Positions 19,211 through 37,881 of a DNA stretch of 64,000 nucleotides are shown piece after piece; position 1 is the stretch's first letter; each line of letters begins with the position of its first letter. This DNA comes from Blautia massiliensis (ex Durand et al. 2017). GTDB lineage: Bacteria; Bacillota; Clostridia; Lachnospirales; Lachnospiraceae. The position numbers and the translations under genes are program-made. Location of the stretch: positions 2,174,096 through 2,238,095 of the forward strand of contig NZ_LN913006.1 in NCBI RefSeq assembly GCF_001487165.1. Direction: 5' to 3'. The notes beneath the pieces were generated by a model that saw nothing but the letters and a program-made list of their open reading frames with translations, searched no databases and was not told the origin of the DNA.

Positions 19211-19640
19211 GCTCTCCTGTGGAAGCATGGACAAGCCCATGCTTCCCAGACAGAGCTTGCCAGTCTATTAAAGTGCATTATCACCAGTGCACTTTAACAG
19301 GCTGACAAAGCCGGATTGTTCCTTGAAAAAGAAAGCGTCTAATCAACGCAGCATAAAGCAGCCGAATACGTTTCGATAGAAAGAGAGCCGTTGGGCTGGC
19401 ACGCCGTGACCCACCAAAGGAGGGATGAAACCGGATAGCGATTCCTGCCAGCGTTCCATAAGCAGCTTACCGCAAAAGCTGCCGCCATGACCTTTCTATC
19501 GTGATAATGATACTTCCGTACAGCCTTAGTCTGTGTGATGATGTAGCACCGCTGACAAAGGGTACGGCTGGATGAGAACCATGCAGGGGTGAGATTCCCA
19601 TGAGCTTTAGCGAAAGCTGTTCGGCTTGCTTATATACTAT
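19211..19640 (+). ncRNA. Possible structured RNA between Orf8 and the excisionase gene
   Basis: There is no ORF of note across about 430 bases, yet base pairing is rich. Local stems: GGAAGCATGG / CCATGCTTCC (19221-19230 / 19237-19246), TTAAAGTGCA / TGCACTTTAA (19268-19277 / 19288-19297) and AGCTTT / AAAGCT (19603-19608 / 19613-19618). A long-range perfect 10-bp stem CGATAGAAAG / CTTTCTATCG (19374-19383 / 19492-19501) encloses two further 7-bp stems (19395-19401 / 19446-19452 and 19462-19468 / 19476-19482), a multi-branch layout. CCGTAC / GTACGG pair at 19516 / 19562. Strand, ends and transcription are inferred; I do not recognise a known RNA family. Confidence 0.45.
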
Positions 19641-27511: not shown

Positions 27512-28555
27512 ATGGGCTCTGTCCTCTCATACAGCGGACTCTCCACCAAGATCCGCGCCATGCAGAGCAGGCTTGTGACAGATGAGCAGCTGGAAGAAAT
27601 CGTTCAGCTTCCCAATGTCCCACAGGTAACAGCCTACCTGAAACGGACTCCGGAATATCAGAATATCTGGTCCGGTCTCGATGAAAATGATCTTCACCGC
27701 GGACAGATAGAAAAACTCCTGAAGAAATCCATCTTCCTGAATTTTTCAAGGCTTTACCACTTTGCAAATCAGGAACAGCGAACGTTCCTGTCGCTTTACT
27801 CGAAGCGTTATGAGATCCGCGTCCTGAAAGAAATCATGACGAATCTCTTTGACCACCGGGACACCGATCCCGTAGATATTTCTCCCTACCGCGATTTTTT
27901 CAAACATCATTCCAAGCTGGACATTGACAGGCTTACCGCCTGCACCAATATGGATGAATTCATTGCGGCACTGAAGGGAAATGATTTTTTTATTCCGCTG
28001 TCTCAGGTCAACGAACGTGGAAATGCCACGCTTTTTGACTTCGGCATGGCACTTGACCTTTCGTATTTTTCACAGATCTGGAATGTGCGGAAGAAGCTTT
28101 TCAAAGGTAACGATCTGAAACAGATCACCAAGGCTTACGGTGAAAAATTCGATATGCTGAACCTGCAGTTCATCCAGCGCTCCAAACGCTGCTTTCAGAT
28201 GGAACCGGCTGCTATTTACGCATTGCTGGTCCCCATGAACTACAAGCTCCGCAAAGAGGAGATCACCACCCTTGTGGAGGCCCCTACACCAGAAGAGTTC
28301 CGTCGTATCTTCAATGGAACTTATTATGGTAAGAAATACGAACAGCTGACCGTCGCCAGTCTGGAAGAATTTTATAACTATATTCTTCGCAGCATACTGG
28401 AACAGGAAGCACGCAAGGATCCCTATTCTGTAGCAGTCATCTATTCCTATTTATATCACAAAGAACATGAAGTCAACCGTCTGACCATTGCCCTTGAATG
28501 CGTGCGCTATGGCGTGGACCCAGAACAATCCCTGCGTTATATACGCAACGGTTAA
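27512..28555 (+). CDS. ntpC: V-type ATPase subunit C
   Basis: A 347-residue helical protein of the V0D/AC39 family. It forms the funnel that joins the central shaft (D/F) to the rotating K ring. Family features include the early YSGLSTKIRAMQSRL and the tail EHEVNRLTIALECVRYG. In many bacterial operons this gene lies after E; here it stands between the stalk subunit and subunit I. AAAGGAAG precedes ATG 27512. Confidence 0.91.
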   Translation: MGSVLSYSGLSTKIRAMQSRLVTDEQLEEIVQLPNVPQVTAYLKRTPEYQNIWSGLDENDLHRGQIEKLLKKSIFLNFSRLYHFANQEQRTFLSLYSKRYEIRVLKEIMTNLFDHRDTDPVDISPYRDFFKHHSKLDIDRLTACTNMDEFIAALKGNDFFIPLSQVNERGNATLFDFGMALDLSYFSQIWNVRKKLFKGNDLKQITKAYGEKFDMLNLQFIQRSKRCFQMEPAAIYALLVPMNYKLRKEEITTLVEAPTPEEFRRIFNGTYYGKKYEQLTVASLEEFYNYILRSILEQEARKDPYSVAVIYSYLYHKEHEVNRLTIALECVRYGVDPEQSLRYIRNG

Positions 28556-28573
28556 TAACCAGGAGGTAGCAAC

Positions 28574-30514
28574 GTGATTGAAAAAATGAATTTTCTAAGC
28601 ATCACCGGTCCCAAGGCAGATATCGACCGGGTTGTAAACACCTACCTGTGCAAGTACGAGATCCATCTGGAAAACGCTCTCTCAGAGCTGACCACAGTAG
28701 AAAGTCTGACGCCTTTCCTGGATGTCAACCCCTACAGAGATGCCTTAAATTCCATCAATACCATTTATGAGGAGCTGAAAACTCCTCCGTCCACTTCCAA
28801 CAGAAGCCCGGGTATTGAAACAGCACTTTCCACAGTAAAGGAGATCCGCTCCCAGGCGGATCAGCTCCAGAAGGAACAGTCCGAACTGGAAGAAAAATGT
28901 TCCTCTCTGGAAGAGTCACTGCGGATCATACGTCCCTTCCGAAATATTGATTATGATATTTCATCCATACTTCATCTGAAGTATATCCATTTTCATTTCG
29001 GACGTATCGAGAAACAGTATTATGAGAAATTCAAGAAATATATTTACGACAATCTGAACACGATCTTCCTTAAATGCGATGAAGATGACCAATACGTCTG
29101 GGGCGTTTACTTCGTACCGAAGCACGAAGCACACAAAATTGATGCCGCCTACTCTTCTATGCACTTTGAGAAGATCTTTGTGCCGGATAATTATACCGGA
29201 ACTGCCCAGCAGGCATTTTCAAGCGTAAGCAAACAATACGAGGATGCCATGAAACATCTTGAAACAAAGAAGCAGAAATACCAGAGATTTCTTGCGGATC
29301 AGGCAGAAACCATCGTTACCGCCAGAAACACACTTCTTCAGTTTTCCAGAAATTTCGATGTCCGGAAAGCGGCAGCCTGCACCGGAAAGCATGAAAATTT
29401 CTATATTCTCTGCGGCTGGATGACAGAAGCCGACACCAGAGCTTTTCAAGCCGATATCTCATCCGACGAAAAAATCTTCTGCCTGGTAGACGGAGAAGAT
29501 ACCAATACGCCGGAGCACGACCAGAACCATCAGCCGCCGACCAAGCTGAAAAACCCGAAGCTTTTCAAGCCCTTTGAAATGTATGTAAAAATGTACGGAC
29601 TTCCCGCCTATGGCGAGATGGACCCCACCTGGTTTGTTGCCATCACCTACTCCTTTATTTTCGGAGCCATGTTCGGTGATGCAGGACAGGGACTCCTGCT
29701 CTTTATCGGAGGATTGCTCCTGTACAAGCTGAAGCATATCGATCTTGCCGGAATCATCAGCTGCGCCGGAGTCTTTTCCACATTTTTCGGTCTGATGTTC
29801 GGAAGTATCTTTGGATTTGAGGATGTCATACCTGCTCTGTGGCTGCGGCCTGTGGACAGTATGACGACCATACCTTTTATCGGAAAACTGAATACCGTAT
29901 TTATCGTTGCCATCGGCTTCGGCATGGGAATCATCCTCCTGTGTATGGTTTTCAACATCATCAATTCCTTTAAGACGCATGATGTTGAAAAAACTTGGTT
30001 TGACACCAACGCTGTGGCAGGACTTGTATTTTATGGCTCCGCAGTTCTCTGCATCGGACTCTTTGTATCCGGGCATGCAGTTCCGGGTGGTGCAGTCCTT
30101 GCCATTATGTTTGGTTTACCGCTGCTTCTTATTTTCTTCAAGGAGCCTCTTACAAACCTGGTAGAAAAAAAGGCCGAGGTTATGCCAAAAGAAAAAGGCA
30201 TGTTTATCGTACAGGGTATCTTTGAACTGTTCGAGGTTATCCTGAGCTACTTTTCCAATACACTCTCCTTCGTGCGTATCGGTGCTTTTGCAGTCAGCCA
30301 CGCAGCTATGATGGAGGTTGTACTTATGCTTGCAGGCGCAGAAAACGGCAGTCCGAACTGGATCGTCATCATTCTCGGAAACCTGTTCGTATGCGCTATG
30401 GAGGGCCTGATCGTAGGTATCCAGGTACTCCGTCTGGAATATTACGAAATGTTCAGCCGTTTTTACAAGGGCAGCGGACGGAAATTCGAGCCGTTCTGCT
30501 CAAAAAACAAATAA
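28574..30514 (+). CDS. ntpI: V-type ATPase subunit I (a-like)
   Basis: A 646-residue stator subunit. The N-terminal half (about 1-340) is a soluble coiled-coil arm that contacts the peripheral stalks. The C-terminal half has about seven to eight membrane segments forming the two ion half-channels. The key Arg lies in NTLSFVRIGAFAVSHA. GTG 28574 is the start, 7 bases after AGGAGG; ATG a few codons later is possible. It works against the K ring encoded next. Confidence 0.94.
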   Translation: MIEKMNFLSITGPKADIDRVVNTYLCKYEIHLENALSELTTVESLTPFLDVNPYRDALNSINTIYEELKTPPSTSNRSPGIETALSTVKEIRSQADQLQKEQSELEEKCSSLEESLRIIRPFRNIDYDISSILHLKYIHFHFGRIEKQYYEKFKKYIYDNLNTIFLKCDEDDQYVWGVYFVPKHEAHKIDAAYSSMHFEKIFVPDNYTGTAQQAFSSVSKQYEDAMKHLETKKQKYQRFLADQAETIVTARNTLLQFSRNFDVRKAAACTGKHENFYILCGWMTEADTRAFQADISSDEKIFCLVDGEDTNTPEHDQNHQPPTKLKNPKLFKPFEMYVKMYGLPAYGEMDPTWFVAITYSFIFGAMFGDAGQGLLLFIGGLLLYKLKHIDLAGIISCAGVFSTFFGLMFGSIFGFEDVIPALWLRPVDSMTTIPFIGKLNTVFIVAIGFGMGIILLCMVFNIINSFKTHDVEKTWFDTNAVAGLVFYGSAVLCIGLFVSGHAVPGGAVLAIMFGLPLLLIFFKEPLTNLVEKKAEVMPKEKGMFIVQGIFELFEVILSYFSNTLSFVRIGAFAVSHAAMMEVVLMLAGAENGSPNWIVIILGNLFVCAMEGLIVGIQVLRLEYYEMFSRFYKGSGRKFEPFCSKNK

Positions 30515-30550
30515 AATGCCAGAGTCGGAACGCATTCTGATCCGGGCATT
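30515..30550 (+). repeat. Hairpin between ntpI and ntpK
   Basis: AATGCC (30515-30520) pairs with GGCATT (30545-30550) around an imperfect inner stem, just after the ntpI stop. It may protect or partly separate the downstream ntpK message, whose product is needed in many copies. Function inferred. Confidence 0.4.
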
Positions 30551-30581
30551 CAATTAAACGAATATTAAGGAGGTCATCATC

Positions 30582-31013
30582 ATGACAGTCATTACACAGA
30601 TCACAATCGCAGTTGCACTTGTACTCAGCATCATTCTTCCATTTGGTTATTATCTTCTCGGCGAAAAAAGCCGCGGCCGCTACAAAACAGCTCTTGGTGT
30701 CAACGCCTTTTTCTTCTTCGGGATCATGCTTGTTGCCATTGCAGTAACATTTGCAGGCGGAGCTTCCGTACAAGCTGCTACAGGCGCTGACGCAGGCCTT
30801 GCAACAGGTATGGGTTACATCGCAGCAGCACTTGTTACCGGACTTTCCTGTATCGGTGGTGGTATTGCCGTTGCCAGTGCGGCAAGCGCAGCACTTGGAG
30901 CGATCAGTGAGGATCAGAGCATCCTTGGTAAATCTCTTATCTTCGTAGGTCTTGCCGAAGGTGTTGCTCTTTATGGACTGATCATCTCCTTCATGATCCT
31001 GGGTAAACTTTGA
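30582..31013 (+). CDS. ntpK: V-type ATPase subunit K (rotor ring proteolipid)
   Basis: A 143-residue membrane protein with four hydrophobic segments (about 6-26, 37-58, 76-105, 115-140). The second pair is a normal c-type hairpin, with GGGIAVASAASAALGA and the ion-binding Glu126 in FVGLAEGVALYG. The first pair lacks a matching carboxylate, so each subunit carries one ion site, as in V-type pumps. I do not see a clear Na+-ligand set (the Q/T pattern of Enterococcus NtpK), so ion choice is open. AGGAGG precedes ATG 30582. Confidence 0.94.
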   Translation: MTVITQITIAVALVLSIILPFGYYLLGEKSRGRYKTALGVNAFFFFGIMLVAIAVTFAGGASVQAATGADAGLATGMGYIAAALVTGLSCIGGGIAVASAASAALGAISEDQSILGKSLIFVGLAEGVALYGLIISFMILGKL

Positions 31014-31014
31014 T

Positions 31015-31323
31015 ATGAAAATGTATCTGATCAGTGACAATATTGATACTCTGACAGGAATGAGACTGGCCGGTGTAGAGGGTGTGATCGTTCATGAGCA
31101 CGACGAGCTGAAGGAAGCTCTGGAGCGCACCATCGCAGACAAAGAGATCGGAATCATACTCCTGACCGAAAAATTCGGCCGGGAGTTTCCTGAGATCATT
31201 GATGATGTCAAGCTTCATCACAAAACACCTCTCATCATTGAAATTCCTGACAGACATGGTACCGGCCGCAGACCTGATTTCATTACATCTTATGTAAATG
31301 AGGCCATCGGATTAAAATTATAG
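31015..31323 (+). CDS. ntpG: V-type ATPase subunit F
   Basis: A 102-residue central-shaft subunit that binds D and helps couple rotation. The Rossmann-like family pattern is seen (IGIILLTEKFGREFPEIID, then PLIIEIPDRHG). Its ATG lies one base after the ntpK stop, so translation is coupled. In Enterococcus naming this is NtpG. Confidence 0.92.
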   Translation: MKMYLISDNIDTLTGMRLAGVEGVIVHEHDELKEALERTIADKEIGIILLTEKFGREFPEIIDDVKLHHKTPLIIEIPDRHGTGRRPDFITSYVNEAIGLKL

Positions 31324-31335
31324 GCAGGTGATATT

Positions 31336-31923
31336 ATGACAATTGAAGAGAAGCTTAAACACTTCTATGACACCTCCGTGGACGAAGCACGCCGTCAGGC
31401 GGAAAAAGATGTCCGGGAACACAAGGAATCCCTGGATGCCGCACTGGAGGAACATAAAAAAATGTCTCTGGAAAACGCCGCCAGCTCCCGCAAAGCCGAG
31501 ATTGCAAACGCAAAGCGCGAGATCAACAAGGCACTTTCCGCAGAGCAGCTTCACATCCGGCGTGACTGGACTGCCAGACAGAGCCGCTTAAAAGAAAAAC
31601 TTTTTGCTGAAGTCCGGGAACAGATCCTGAAATTCATGGAATCTTCCCGTTATGAAGAATATCTTTGTACAAAAATTGAAGAAGCTGTCTGCTTCGCGGA
31701 ACACGATGAGATCCAGATCTATCTTTCAAAAGAAGATGAACCCCGTCTGAAGTCTCTCACTGTAAAGACCGGTTTCCCGCTGAAGGTTTCCGATGAATCC
31801 TTTATCGGCGGGATCAAGGCGATAATCCCTGAAAAAAATATCCTCATCGACAATTCCTTTGAGGAAGGCTATCAGGCAGCTTACAGAGAATTCAAATTTG
31901 ACGGAGGTCCAGCACATGAGTAA
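31336..31923 (+). CDS. ntpE: V-type ATPase subunit E
   Basis: A 195-residue peripheral-stalk subunit: an N-terminal coiled coil (about 1-90, rich in E, K, R and A) and a C-terminal globular head (about 95-195) with GGIKAIIPEKNILIDNSFEEGY, typical of subunit E. It pairs with the small stalk protein at the start of the operon and binds the top of A/B. The stop overlaps the ntpA start by 8 bases. Confidence 0.9.
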   Translation: MTIEEKLKHFYDTSVDEARRQAEKDVREHKESLDAALEEHKKMSLENAASSRKAEIANAKREINKALSAEQLHIRRDWTARQSRLKEKLFAEVREQILKFMESSRYEEYLCTKIEEAVCFAEHDEIQIYLSKEDEPRLKSLTVKTGFPLKVSDESFIGGIKAIIPEKNILIDNSFEEGYQAAYREFKFDGGPAHE

Positions 31924-33685
31924 AACAGGTATTATCTACGGTGTTAACGGTCCTGTTATCTACCTCAAGGGCGACACCGGCTTCAAGATCTCCGAGATGG
32001 TCTATGTAGGCCCCGAAAAACTGGTTGGAGAAGTCATCGGTCTTAAGAAACATATGACGACCATACAGGTTTTTGAGGAAACTACAGGGCTGAAACCCGG
32101 AGAAACTGTTATCGGAACAGGAGACGCTATTTCCGTTCTCCTTGGTCCGGGAATCATCCACAATATTTTTGATGGTATCCAGAGACCTCTGGCAGAGATT
32201 GCCCAGGCCTCTGGAAAATATATTTCCCGTGGTGTCAGCGTTGACTCTCTTGACACAGAAAAAAAATGGGAAACCCACATTACCGTAAAGGAAGGTGACG
32301 TCATCGGTGCAGGCACGGTTATTGCCGAGACACAGGAAACCGCCTCCATCCTTCACAAATCCATGGTTCCGCCCACGATCACACACGGAACCGTTATCCA
32401 TGCAGCTCCTGACGGTGCCTATACCGTTCTGGAGCCCATTGTTACCATCCGCCTTGATGACGGAACTGAAAAAGAACTGGCACTTGCCCAGAAATGGCCG
32501 ATCCGTGTTCCACGGCCGACCTACAAGCGTTTCCCGGCCAGCGTTCCGCTCCTTACCGGTCAGCGAATCCTGGATACCCTTTTCCCTATTGCCAAGGGAG
32601 GCACTGCCGCAGTTCCCGGCGGATTCGGAACAGGAAAAACCATGACACAGCACCAGATCGCCAAGTGGTCAGACGCAGATATCATCATCTACATCGGCTG
32701 TGGCGAGCGTGGAAACGAGATGACACAGGTTCTTGAGGACTTCAGCAAGCTGATCGACCCGAAATCCGGAAACCTGATGATGGACCGTACCACACTGATC
32801 GCCAACACCTCCAACATGCCGGTTGCAGCCCGTGAGGCTTCTATCTATACAGGTGTCACACTTGCGGAATATTACCGTGATATGGGTTATGATGTAGCGA
32901 TCATGGCAGACTCCACATCCCGATGGGCCGAGGCTCTCCGTGAGCTTTCCGGACGTCTGGAGGAGATGCCTGCAGAGGAAGGCTTCCCTGCATATCTGGC
33001 AAGTAAGCTTTCCGCCTTCTATGAGCGCGCGGGAATGATGCAGAACCTGAACGGAACAGAGGGTTCCGTATCCATTATCGGTGCAGTTTCCCCTCAGGGT
33101 GGTGATTTCTCCGAGCCGGTCACACAGAATACCAAACGTTTTGTCCGCTGTTTCTGGGGACTGGACAAGGCTCTTGCCTATGCCCGTCACTTCCCTGCCA
33201 TCCAGTGGCTGACCAGCTACAGCGAATATCTGGAGGACCTGACTCCCTGGTACAGAGAGCATGTCTCCCCGAAATTCGTTTATGACAGAAACCAGATCAT
33301 GGCTATCCTCAACCAGGAAAGCTCTCTTATGGAGATCGTCAAGCTGATCGGAAGCGATGTTCTTCCGGATGATCAGAAGCTGACGCTGGAGATCGCCAGG
33401 GTTATCCGTCTGGGCTTCCTGCAGCAGAACGCTTTTCACCAGGAGGACACCAGTGTTCCTATGGAAAAGCAGTTCCTGATGATGGAAACCATCCTCTATC
33501 TCTACGAAAAATGCCGTGCCCTTGTAAACCGTGGCATGCCGGTTTCCGTGCTGAAGGAGGATAAGATCTTTGAACGTATCATCGCCATCAAATACGAGGT
33601 TCCAAATAAAGAGCCGGAGCGTTTTGATGAATATCATAAAGATATCGACCGCTTCTACGACAATGTACTGGAAAGAAACGGTTAA
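31916..33685 (+). CDS. ntpA: V-type ATPase catalytic subunit A
   Basis: The 589-residue catalytic subunit hydrolyses or makes ATP in the hexameric head. The P-loop (GGFGTGKT) is at about 235-242 and the catalytic Glu lies in CGERGNEM. Adenine-pocket and DELSEED-like regions follow. It has the extra bulge domain that sets A apart from F-type beta. ATG 31916 follows GGAGG and gives the usual start [15 protein letters not shown]; an upstream start lies inside ntpE. Confidence 0.97.
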
Positions 33686-33700
33686 AGGAGGGATCAGTTT

Positions 33701-35083
33701 ATGGCAATCGAATATCTTGGCCTGAGTGAAATAAACGGCCCTCTTGTTGTCCTTGAGGGTGTAAAAAACGCATCTTACGAGGAGATCGTGGAATTCCACA
33801 TGGAGGACGGCACTCAAAAGATCGGCCGTATCGTGGAAATCTATGAGGACAAGGCCGTTATCCAGGTTTTTGAGGGAACTGACAATATGTCCCTCGGCAA
33901 TACACACACACGTCTTACCGGACATCCTATGGAGATCGGGCTTTCTCCTGAGATCCTGGGACGTACCTTTAACGGTATCGGCCAGCCCATTGACGGGCTT
34001 GGCGAGATCACACCGGAGGTCAGCCTGAACATTAACGGGCTTCCGCTGAATCCGGTAACCCGTGAATATCCACGAAACTATATCAACACCGGTATCTCCG
34101 CTATTGACGGACTGACCACACTGATCCGCGGCCAGAAGCTGCCGATCTTTTCCGGTAACGGTCTTCCACATGATAAGCTGGCTGCACAGATCGTTCAGCA
34201 GGCTTCCCTGGGAGCAGACTCCGATGAGAAATTCGCCATTGTTTTTGCAGCAATGGGTGTGAAATACGACGTAGCGGAATTCTTCCGCAGGACCTTCGAA
34301 GAAAGCGGTGCGTCCGACCACGTTGTGATGTTTTTGAACCTTGCAAACGATCCGGTTGTAGAGCGTCTTCTGACACCGAAGATCGCCCTCACTGCCGCTG
34401 AGTATCTTGCTTTTGAAAAAGGCATGCATATCCTGGTAATCCTGACTGATATCACCTCCTTCTGTGAGGCCATGCGAGAGGTTTCCTCCTCCAAGGGTGA
34501 GATTCCTTCCCGAAAGGGTTATCCCGGATATCTGTACAGTGAGCTTGCAACCCTTTACGAGCGTGCGGGAATCGTCCGTGGCGGCACCGGGTCTGTAACC
34601 CAGATCCCAATCCTGACCATGCCAAACGACGACATCACACACCCGATCCCGGACCTTACCGGATATATCACAGAAGGCCAGATCGTACTGGACCGCCAGC
34701 TTCACGGTCAGGCGATCTATCCGCCGATCAATGTTCTGCCATCCCTGTCCCGTCTGATGAAGGACGGTATCGGTGAAGGCTTCACACGTGCCGATCATCA
34801 GGATGTTGCCAACCAGCTCTTCTCCTGCTACGCAAAGGTAGGCGATGCAAGAGCTCTGGCATCCGTTATCGGTGAGGATGAGCTTTCTCCGCTGGATAAG
34901 CAGTACCTTGTATTCGGAAAAGCCTTCGAGGCAGAGTTTGTAGGACAGTCAGAAACAGAGAATCGAAGCATCATCGAAACTCTGGATAAGGGCTGGGAGC
35001 TTCTTGGCCTTCTTCCAAGAGAAGAGCTCGACCGTATCGATACCAAAGTTCTGGATCAGTATTACAGAGAAACCGTCCGTTAG
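33701..35083 (+). CDS. ntpB: V-type ATPase subunit B
   Basis: The 460-residue non-catalytic head subunit alternates with A. The P-loop position is degenerate ([15 protein letters not shown]), as expected, and the conserved run with [22 protein letters not shown] is present. AAAGGAGGG stands 11 bases before ATG 33701, 15 bases after ntpA. Confidence 0.97.
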
Positions 35084-35095
35084 TGAGGTGATTTT

Positions 35096-35719
35096 ATGGA
35101 TCCGAATACCTTTCCCACCAAGGGAAATCTCATACTTGCAAAAAACTCTCTGGCTCTTTCCAAACAGGGCTATGAGCTTATGGACAAAAAGCGTAATATC
35201 CTGATCCGTGAAATGATGGAGCTGATCGATCAGGCAAAGGATATCCAGTCACAGATCGATGAGACCTTCCGTACCGCTTATGCGGCTCTTCAGAAGGCAA
35301 ATATGGAAATTGGAATCGCTTTCGTAGACCAGATCTCTCATACCGTTCCTGTGGAAGATTCCATCCGAATCAAAACCAGGAGCGTCATGGGAACCGAGAT
35401 CCCTCTTGTGGAATATGACAAAAAAGCAGGCAACACGCCGACCTACGCCTACTACAGCACCAAGCTGTCCCTGGACGAGGCCAAGGCAGCCTTCGAGCGT
35501 GTAAAGGAGCTGTCCATCCAGCTCTCCATGATCGAAAACGCCGCCATCCGTCTTGCCACCAACATCAAAAAAACCCAGAAGCGTGCCAATGCGCTGAAAA
35601 ACATCACCATCCCCAGATACGAAACTCTCACCCGAGATATCACCAATGCTCTGGAAGAAAAAGAGCGTGAAGAGTTTACACGTCTGAAGGTGATCAAACG
35701 TATGAAACAAAATAGTTAA
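35096..35719 (+). CDS. ntpD: V-type ATPase central-shaft subunit D
   Basis: A 207-residue subunit forming the long antiparallel coiled coil of the rotor shaft. The start (FPTKGNLILAKNSLALSKQGYELMDKKRNIL) and the C-terminal IKKTQKRANALKNITIPRY are family hallmarks. It starts 12 bases after ntpB and is the last gene; a strong terminator follows two bases after the stop. Confidence 0.96.
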   Translation: MDPNTFPTKGNLILAKNSLALSKQGYELMDKKRNILIREMMELIDQAKDIQSQIDETFRTAYAALQKANMEIGIAFVDQISHTVPVEDSIRIKTRSVMGTEIPLVEYDKKAGNTPTYAYYSTKLSLDEAKAAFERVKELSIQLSMIENAAIRLATNIKKTQKRANALKNITIPRYETLTRDITNALEEKEREEFTRLKVIKRMKQNS

Positions 35720-35764: not shown

Positions 35765-36198
35765 TTATCCACATTTATCCACACCTGAAAATGACTTTTC
35801 AACACCTTGCAGTGATCGTTTTAACTGGGCACTGTTCTTTTTTATCCTCATTTCCATACATCCGATAGTCCCCCTTTTAAATAGATTAGTTTTTCAAGAA
35901 TTTACTCATTATTATCTGATTATTTATTTTTATTCTTTTGTATTATGTCTTTTTTGCAATAAATTTTATGATATTTAGAATTTAAAAATGTCAATAGTTT
36001 TAAAAACTTTTTTCCCATTTTTTACAATTTTATCATTTTACACAAAACATATGTTTAAATTTATTTATGTAAATCAGGTCATCCACATGGTTATCCTTGT
36101 GGATAATGTGGATAAATTTGTGCATAACTTGATTATTGGCGGATTTGCGGATTTTTGTCATGTGGAAAACTTTTTGGAAAGTTTTTCACTTATCCACC
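35765..36198. other. Cluster of DnaA boxes around an AT-rich core
   Basis: Six exact matches to TTWTNCACA: TTATCCACA at 35765-35773 and 35775-35783 (plus strand, 10 bases apart), and on the minus strand at 36098-36106, 36107-36115, 36119-36127 (TTATGCACA) and 36161-36169 (TTTTCCACA). Near matches are at 36079-36087 and 36190-36198. Between the two groups, about 35870-36075, lies a very AT-rich block. The layout looks like a replication origin or a DnaA-binding locus; neighbouring dnaA/dnaN are absent. Confidence 0.7.
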
Positions 36199-36355
36199 AT
36201 GGTTCGACAAGTTTTGTGCATATTGCCAGAACGACCTTTTCAGGGCTGATATTGCCCGTATCCGCACGCACCTGTCTAATGTTGCCAATCCTCTCCGATT
36301 TTATATCAAGCCTTTCTTTTTGCAGCTTTTTATGGTGTTTCTCCTGCGTGCGGTC

Positions 36356-36549: not shown

Positions 36550-37881
36550 ATGAACAGCACATTTATGAAGGAAAAGCCTGTCGGCCCGCTGCTGGCATCC
36601 ATGGCGCTGCCTATGGTCTTTTCCATGCTTGTAAACTCACTATACAACATTGTGGACAGCTTCTTCGTGGCACAGATCAGCGAGCAGGCCATGACCGCCC
36701 TGTCCCTTGTCTATCCGGTCCAGAACATGATCAACGCCGTTGCCATTGGCTTCGGGATCGGAATCAACGCCAGAGTTTCCTATCACCTTGGCGCAGGGGA
36801 CAAAAAAATGGCAGACACTGCCGCAACCCACGGATTTTTTCTGTCTGTGATCCACGGGATCCTGATGACTGTGATCAGCATCGCTGTTATGCCCGTATTC
36901 CTTCAGATGTACACCCAGGATGAAACAGTGATCCGAATGGGGCTGGAGTATTCTACCATCGTTTTCCTGTTTTCCACAGTAATTGCCATCAGCCTTTTCT
37001 TCGAAAAACTTTTCCAGGCTGTAGGACGGATGAAAGTATCCATGCTCGCCCTGCTTGTGGGATGTATCAGCAACATCATCCTGGACCCGTTCCTGATCTG
37101 GGGAATCGGCTTTTTCCCGAAGCTGGGTATCCGGGGCGCAGCTCTGGCTACTGGCATCGGCCAGGTGCTCACCATTGCGGTCTATATGGTCTTTTATACC
37201 CTGAAGCCTATTCCTGTACGTGTAACACCCAAAGCCCTGAAAACAAGCAAAGTAACGGATCTGAGCCTGTATGCCATCGGTGTTCCCGCGATCCTGAACC
37301 TTGCACTGCCATCGTTTCTGATCTCTTTTCTGAACTCCGTGCTGGCCGCTTACTCGGACAGCTATGTGGTGATCCTTGGCATTTATTACAAACTGCAGAC
37401 CTTCCTGTATCTCCCGGCCAACGGAATCATCCAGGGAATGCGCCCGCTGATCGGTTATAACTTCGGTGCCCGTGAGATGAAGCGTGTGAAAAAAATCTTC
37501 CGGCTCACCCTGGAATCCAGCTGTGTGATCATGCTCTTTGGAACCGTTATCTGCCTCCTGGCATCCGGACAGCTTATGGGACTTTTCACAACTACCCCGG
37601 AAACCATTGTCGCTGGCTCCAGAGCACTGAAGATCATCAGCGCCGGCTTTCTTGTTTCTGCTGTATCCGTTACCACTTCCGGTGCCATGGAAGGCCTTGG
37701 AAAAGGCACGCAGTCCCTTGTAATTTCCCTTTTCCGCTATGTGGTCGTTATCATGCCCACCGCATATCTTCTGTCCCATTTTATGGGTCCTGATGGCGTA
37801 TGGAACGCATTCTGGATCACAGAGGTGTTTACAGCCATCGTTTCTGTCATGATTTATCACAAAACGTTGAAAAAAGCCTGA
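36550..37881 (+). CDS. MATE-family multidrug/sodium antiporter
   Basis: A 443-residue membrane protein with about twelve hydrophobic segments and internal two-fold likeness, typical of MATE exporters, which push cationic drugs or metabolites out in exchange for Na+ or H+. Conserved pieces include NIVDSFFVAQI near the start and the GIIQGMRPLIGYNFGA stretch. A weak ribosome site (AAAGGGGG) stands before ATG 36550. It is a single gene ending at a bidirectional terminator. Substrate unknown. Confidence 0.92.
   Translation: MNSTFMKEKPVGPLLASMALPMVFSMLVNSLYNIVDSFFVAQISEQAMTALSLVYPVQNMINAVAIGFGIGINARVSYHLGAGDKKMADTAATHGFFLSVIHGILMTVISIAVMPVFLQMYTQDETVIRMGLEYSTIVFLFSTVIAISLFFEKLFQAVGRMKVSMLALLVGCISNIILDPFLIWGIGFFPKLGIRGAALATGIGQVLTIAVYMVFYTLKPIPVRVTPKALKTSKVTDLSLYAIGVPAILNLALPSFLISFLNSVLAAYSDSYVVILGIYYKLQTFLYLPANGIIQGMRPLIGYNFGAREMKRVKKIFRLTLESSCVIMLFGTVICLLASGQLMGLFTTTPETIVAGSRALKIISAGFLVSAVSVTTSGAMEGLGKGTQSLVISLFRYVVVIMPTAYLLSHFMGPDGVWNAFWITEVFTAIVSVMIYHKTLKKA

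Follow-up and report, generated by a model that had tools for sequence, protein, structure and literature searches.

The window, a stretch of 64,000 nucleotides from the Blautia massiliensis chromosome (C4:2174096-2238095; the genome has 3,716,523 bases in four contigs, of which C4 has 3,512,494), contained a dense cluster of DnaA boxes at 35765-36198. The cluster lay in an 830-bp gap between the end of a V-type ATPase subunit D gene at 35719 and the start of a MATE efflux gene at 36550 (Table 1). The nearest named relative by the subunit D protein was Blautia luti (98% identity). We counted seven exact TTWTNCACA boxes within the cluster (35765+, 35775+, 36036+, 36098-, 36107-, 36119-, 36161-), one more than the six given in an earlier sequence-only reading, and an eighth (36478+) elsewhere in the same gap. 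That reading had put the chance expectation well under one, and dinucleotide shuffles of the interval (n = 5000) agreed, with a mean of 0.175 exact boxes and a maximum of 2. The second-densest 425-bp stretch of the window held 2 boxes. A+T content was 72% across the cluster, and the very AT-rich block described previously was confirmed, with 82% over 35870-36080.

Table 1 Features of the DnaA-box locus, with positions in the window.
Feature	Position	Strand	Remarks
V-type ATPase subunit D	35096..35719	+	Last gene of the V-ATPase operon; convergent with the element strand
Two forward DnaA boxes	35765..35783	+	Adjoin the terminator-like inverted repeat after the V-ATPase operon; outside the conserved element
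A+T-rich tract	35870..36080	none	82% A+T
Conserved ~260-bp DNA element (model R1)	35977..36232	-	5' end 36232; cmsearch 152.8 bits, the window copy being among the sequences used to build R1; alignments A1 and A2
TTGAC motif	35990..35994	-	Right edge of the conserved block
Forward DnaA box TTTTACACA	36036..36044	+	Overlaps the palindrome; found at this position also in L025 and L036
Palindrome AAACATATGTTTTG, LexA-operator-like	36043..36056	-	Family form RAAC-N4-GTTTTG; 58-61 bp after B2 in 56/59 scored matches (upper estimate)
Conserved GATTTACATAA motif	36065..36075	-	From alignments of relatives
DnaA box B1	36098..36106	-	TTATCCACA; abuts B2
DnaA box B2	36107..36115	-	TTATCCACA; 12 bp from B3 in 50/59 scored matches (upper estimate)
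DnaA box B3	36119..36127	-	TTATGCACA; TTATRCACA in most relatives
DnaA box B4	36161..36169	-	TTTTCCACA in the window copy; TTATCCACA in many relatives
Near-match DnaA box TTATCCACC	36190..36198	+	Read from sequence
TTGTCGAA	36203..36210	-	Contains the Spo0A-box core TGTCGAA; suggestive only
MATE efflux gene	36550..37881	+	Many relatives carry an NlpC/P60 gene in the same place

Among 80 named V-ATPase subunit D loci, 19 had a minus-strand array of boxes downstream of the gene, comprising 12 of the 19 closest (L025-L043) and seven others; the remaining named loci mostly had few or no boxes there, and some ended at contig edges. Alignment of the window with 19 relatives (18 with longer flanks) resolved a conserved block of ~260 bases within poorly conserved intergenic flanks. 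Alignment A1 had 48 invariant columns, the four DnaA boxes accounting for 25 of them and a palindrome for 8 (manual count). The comparison of the gap among relatives upheld one of the two oppositely oriented groups of boxes claimed in the sequence-only reading: the minus-strand group was conserved, and the plus-strand pair at 35765/35775, which falls outside the element, was not. Among the 19 array-bearing relatives this pair was kept as a pair only in L025, and the 36036+ box was found at the same place in only two.

From 36232 along the minus strand, the element consists of TGCACAAA, TGTCGAA (the Spo0A-box core, after the consensus quoted in PMC5295017), a half box, B4, B3, the B2+B1 tandem, GATTTACATAA, the palindrome, ATAAA, and TTGAC. 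Spacing was scored on 60 matches from 60 sources chosen among the fetched loci (58 distinct; L172, at 34 bits, is doubtful), and the tandem was located in 59 of these, with L141 dropped. B4 to B2 measured 52-55 bp in 49/59 matches and the palindrome to TTGAC 62-63 bp in 49/59, all spacing counts being upper estimates because matches found with a profile favor equal spacing. ATAAA followed the palindrome at a nearly fixed distance. TTGAC was half of an inverted repeat, TTGAC-N9-GTCAA, in many relatives, and this repeat was degenerate in the window copy. In the form RTTTACRTAA, the GATTTACATAA motif also occurred in 4/12 stretches around dnaA (our genome, two other Blautia, and G331). The consensus fold had 5 predicted pairs on the model strand, none of which changed on both sides, and there was no Rfam match at the element; a structured RNA gene was rejected on these grounds.

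We searched for the element with R1, a sequence-only profile. Matches to dnaA loci scored 24-27 bits, and 37 bits at L225, so we required at least 40 bits for a clear match. In Blautia, R1 matched 58/64 genomes at E ≤ 0.01 and 54/64 at ≥ 40 bits, with weak matches only in G023, G041, G055, and G056; among genomes of good quality (≥ 90% complete, ≤ 5% contaminated), 31/34 had a clear match. Across the sampled family, 317/396 genomes (234/280 genera) matched at E ≤ 1e-5 and about 293 at 1e-9, the weak matches including false positives such as that of G219 at its oriC. In the other 79 family genomes the element may be missing or too divergent. Both the Blautia and the family samples mostly had one match per genome. 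The element is thus a non-coding feature, usually single-copy, that most of the sampled genomes from the Lachnospiraceae, a large gut bacterial family, carry. At the level of the class, 103/393 genomes matched, 16 of which were family members; the other 87 reached 48.8 bits at most (E ≤ 1e-5), and we therefore make no firm claim on the range beyond the family. Twenty of these 87 loci, picked for long or strong matches, were fetched, and one (L225) was a dnaA locus.

The cluster is a locus ~515 kb down one chromosome arm and not oriC, because the sole dnaA and the GC-skew minimum sit together at that distance. A single DnaA C-terminal-domain match was obtained in the genome, at C4:2725007 and hence outside the window, as stated in the sequence-only reading, while the element is at C4:2210072. 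Skew was taken from sampled stretches of the chromosome, and its cumulative minimum fell at ~2,724,000, within ~1 kb of the dnaA-dnaN gap (1-kb steps, C4:2716000-2735900 sampled). The stretches sampled between 1.44 and 2.72 Mb had negative skew, the initial 16 kb of the window excepted, and those sampled at 0-1.28 Mb and beyond 2.90 Mb had positive skew. Within the window, cumulative skew was nearly flat at 30-35 kb and fell thereafter; in the sampled stretches there was no sign change at the element, and skew was negative beyond the cluster to either side. These positions speak against the relocated or cryptic origin considered in the sequence-only reading, and a relocated origin was rejected on them. 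The proposed check, locating dnaA/dnaN and the skew minimum, left that reading partly supported: the minimum is at the dnaA locus, and the minus-strand boxes of the cluster are kept in relatives. DnaA boxes flanked dnaA on both sides, with rpmH (identified by eye) beyond the upstream boxes. The clostridial bipartite oriC, as described in passages of PMC7561715, likewise has DnaA boxes near A+T-rich DNA, as in the cluster, but it lies at dnaA, where our genome has its own separate boxes. A second copy of oriC was rejected, as the dnaA-dnaN and rpmH-dnaA regions by eye lacked the layout of the element. A strict DnaA-trio test found no run in the 830-bp gap, and the same test also found none at the true oriC.

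Elsewhere in the window, positions 155-21199 resemble an integrative conjugative element, with FtsK-like, rolling-circle Rep, AAA_10 ATPase, response regulator, and FtsX permease genes and a tyrosine integrase adjoining a GMP-synthase (guaA) gene. An Rfam pemK RNA family match (72.4 bits, 19504-19603) lies inside this putative mobile element. GC skew in the first 20 kb of the window was mostly positive, opposite to the surrounding arm. With oriC at 2.72 Mb, the inferred replication fork would meet transcription of the V-ATPase operon (27512-35719) head-on.

To place the element relative to oriC, dnaA was sought in 28 near-complete genomes and 24 were kept, distances being calculated from exact contig sizes as a share of the chromosome or main contig. 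The four dropped were G219, whose best match was at oriC; G297 and G450, which scored 27 and 34 bits; and G150, in which dnaA and the element fell on separate contigs. The median element-dnaA distance was 5.7% (range 1.4-31%), with 14.7% in our genome, and the distribution departed from uniform (Kolmogorov-Smirnov p = 1e-6 for the 24 genomes, 7e-5 for 19 with one Blautia kept, and 6e-5 for the 14 single-contig genomes outside Blautia). The element strand read away from oriC in 17 of these 19 genomes (p = 0.0007; exceptions G331 and G099); p was 0.007 when the weak-match genomes G297 and G450, both opposite, were added. Position and polarity are no proof of selection, because inversions symmetric about oriC preserve both distance and orientation, and the arrangement may be partly inherited synteny.

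The palindrome of the element resembles a LexA operator. RAAC-N4-GTTTTG was found in 53/60 aligned matches (51/58 distinct) against 0.2 expected from first-order resampling, and the strict GAAC-N4-GTTY in 32/60 against 0.7. In C. difficile, LexA operators follow the pattern GAAC-N4-GTTT, and those of recA and lexA are GAGAACAAATGTTTGT and AGGAACAAATGTTTGC (passages of PMC4234289). The recA promoter of our own genome contained GAACAAAGGTTCG, and the lexA promoters of relatives contained GAAC-N4-GTTY as well as TAAACATTTGTTTGC-type sites. A permissive RAAY-N4-GTTY was found ≤ 330 bp upstream of 12/13 lexA genes (none in L205), a count that lacks a chance baseline and is supportive only. Judged by GAAC-N4-GTTY or the lexA-promoter variant, the palindromes of the element are LexA-operator-like, the window copy through its AAAC variant and not the strict form; most Blautia copies have an AAAC first half. 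Outside the family, AAAC-N4-GTTT lay 32-33 bp from the tandem in 5/20 fetched loci (L226, L227, L231, L232, L234), four of which had CAAAAC-N4-GTTTTG. From these motifs, LexA is the probable ligand of the palindrome. A different regulator could occupy the site instead, because Blautia copies are mostly AAAC and CAAAAC-N4-GTTTTG recurs in 4/20 loci outside the family. LexA and DnaA sites also lie side by side in the E. coli uvrB region (PMC6015884); that region is a gene promoter, whereas no co-directional gene follows the palindrome of the window copy, which faces the V-ATPase operon.

Neighboring genes were compared at 58 element loci (L106-L163), of which 30, counting that of the window, belong to Blautia and 28 to other genera. 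The genes that follow the element (hpf, trmB, WecG/TagA-like, and others) were named by eye except where Pfam was run. A member of an SH3+NlpC/P60 cluster was among the two nearest ORFs per side at 37/58 loci (Pfam on the longest member), V-ATPase subunit D was within the fetched flanks at 34/58 (manual count), and trxB-like genes were near many. L139, L146, L149, and L160 had none of the tested neighbors. L188 and L194 shared the order trxB, NlpC/P60, element, hpf. That the element outlives its neighbors points to an independent function, with promoters possible in some lineages. A promoter for an adjacent small gene (e.g. sda-like) was rejected for Blautia, because in L037 and, judged by eye, in L030 little space separates the element from the end of the V-ATPase operon. 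In other families of Clostridia, the array upstream of hpf, which encodes a ribosome hibernation factor (L215, L216, L224, L226, L227, L228, L229, L232), suggests that DnaA and ribosome hibernation could be connected.

These neighborhoods bear on whether the element is a transcription-control region, in which DnaA and a LexA-like repressor would act on a promoter, ancestrally that of hpf, or on a short untranslated RNA. In agreement with this, hpf lay downstream of the array in several family members and in 8/20 loci fetched from beyond the family. Roughly half of the 28 family loci from genera other than Blautia had a co-directional ORF after the element, L122 and L123 had trmB in that place, and ATAAA was set at a nearly fixed distance after the palindrome. 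However, the following genes differ in kind (hpf, trmB, WecG/TagA-like, and others), most Blautia copies, like that of the window, face the V-ATPase operon 3'-to-3', and there is little to transcribe in L037 because the element there ends directly at the operon's terminator-like repeat. The hpf gene of our own genome (C4:3085234) had no exact DnaA box in the fetched upstream stretch, and the results on covariation and Rfam given above also count against this reading. Transcription control is rather unlikely in our estimation.

A reactivating locus of the DARS type, promoting ADP release from DnaA and so stimulating initiation, is suggested by the compact, closely spaced boxes and the conserved site for a second protein, which resemble DARS and datA in outline as partly described in reviews. 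We rate it as unlikely, given that DARS loci are stated to be absent from B. subtilis in passages of PMC13220808, and that proximity to oriC fits a sink or an inactivator at least as well. It is very unlikely that the element is a cryptic, secondary, or damage-induced origin: its boxes adjoin an A+T-rich tract, it shares RTTTACRTAA with some dnaA regions, and it has a LexA-like site, but the skew minimum is at dnaA-dnaN, skew keeps its sign at the element, and no dnaA adjoins it. Least probable of all is some other chromosome function, such as segregation or sporulation-linked positioning, with the DnaA boxes incidental. Its polarity away from oriC and the Spo0A-box-like TGTCGAA, in a genome with a Spo0A-type gene, would fit such a function, but just over half of the invariant A1 columns fall in the DnaA boxes, and polarity that symmetric inversions preserve need not be selected.

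DnaA-box clusters outside oriC are already known. In the open-access literature searched, we found no description of an element that spans a family, keeps a nearly fixed geometry and carries a LexA-like operator. A 2012 title by Okumura et al. reportedly places the B. subtilis clusters near oriC. As partly described, those clusters share with the element dense boxes outside oriC and, in the 24 genomes measured here, an oriC-proximal position. B. subtilis has six of them in the same partial accounts, whereas we found one ~260-bp element, mostly matched once per genome, with nearly fixed spacing and a LexA-like palindrome, the two being compared by description only. The datA locus of E. coli is also an array of DnaA boxes outside oriC that includes a conserved site for a second protein; datA needs IHF, whereas the extra site of the element looks like a LexA operator, and the likeness drawn here is one of layout. 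DARS1 and DARS2 of E. coli are similar in outline as DnaA-binding loci away from oriC with accessory sites, which bind IHF/Fis and reactivate DnaA (passages of PMC5295017).

Besides the element, our genome had at least two other, different DnaA-box clusters. One lies between murC and the dnaD-dnaI (helicase-loader) genes at C4:2016733-2016925 (L006:9934-10126) and was found in 5/6 further Blautia stretches (L238, L240, L241, L242, L243), the sixth, L239 (G013), being another locus. Through this cluster DnaA may regulate its own helicase-loading partners. The other consists of three exact TTATCCACA boxes within 64 intergenic bases at C4:2407152-2407215 (L007:9953-10016). DnaA boxes are over-represented genome-wide, because TTATNCACA occurred 211 times on both strands against 82 for a reversed control pattern.

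We favor, with moderate confidence, an oriC-proximal DnaA-binding control locus, like the B. subtilis clusters or datA, with possible LexA input. The regulatory DnaA sink offered in the sequence-only reading fits an array kept through most of the genus and family, mostly in one match per genome, among varied neighbors and fairly near oriC. DnaA would assemble on the fixed array B4, B3, B2, B1 near oriC, and the array would set the amount of free, initiation-competent DnaA. Because it is located near oriC, the element would be copied fairly early in each round of replication, so that twice as much DnaA could be bound at the time when re-initiation must be avoided, and DnaA would be taken up or inactivated at the locus during this period. 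LexA on the palindrome, at its nearly fixed distance, could allow DNA damage to alter DnaA loading. DnaA binding, LexA binding, an effect on initiation, and the sign of that effect are what we infer from these motifs, and the sequence would fit a sink, inactivation, or reactivation of DnaA alike.

Work in model bacteria bears on this reading in both directions. B. subtilis without its six DnaA-box clusters initiates early, and yet one review rates the role of the clusters as not significant and an excess of DnaA alone does not cause over-initiation (passages of PMC13220808 and PMC5295017). The existence of B. subtilis regulators that balance ATP-DnaA and ADP-DnaA is stated to be unknown in part of PMC13220808. 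In E. coli, DnaA boxes are enriched near oriC, which has been read as favoring titration (PMC12371093).

The element may have descended from the array upstream of hpf in other Clostridia. We also put forward, tentatively and as a doubtful extension of the control-locus reading, that it could be a family-wide, nearly rigid nucleoprotein platform where DnaA and LexA, and perhaps Spo0A, meet, so that DNA damage would directly change DnaA availability and initiation with no encoded protein. Matches in 234 of the 280 sampled genera make the element one defined target, in a major family of gut bacteria, for how non-model bacteria limit DnaA. Should the palindrome prove to be a LexA site, the SOS response and the control of initiation would be tied together directly at the DNA.
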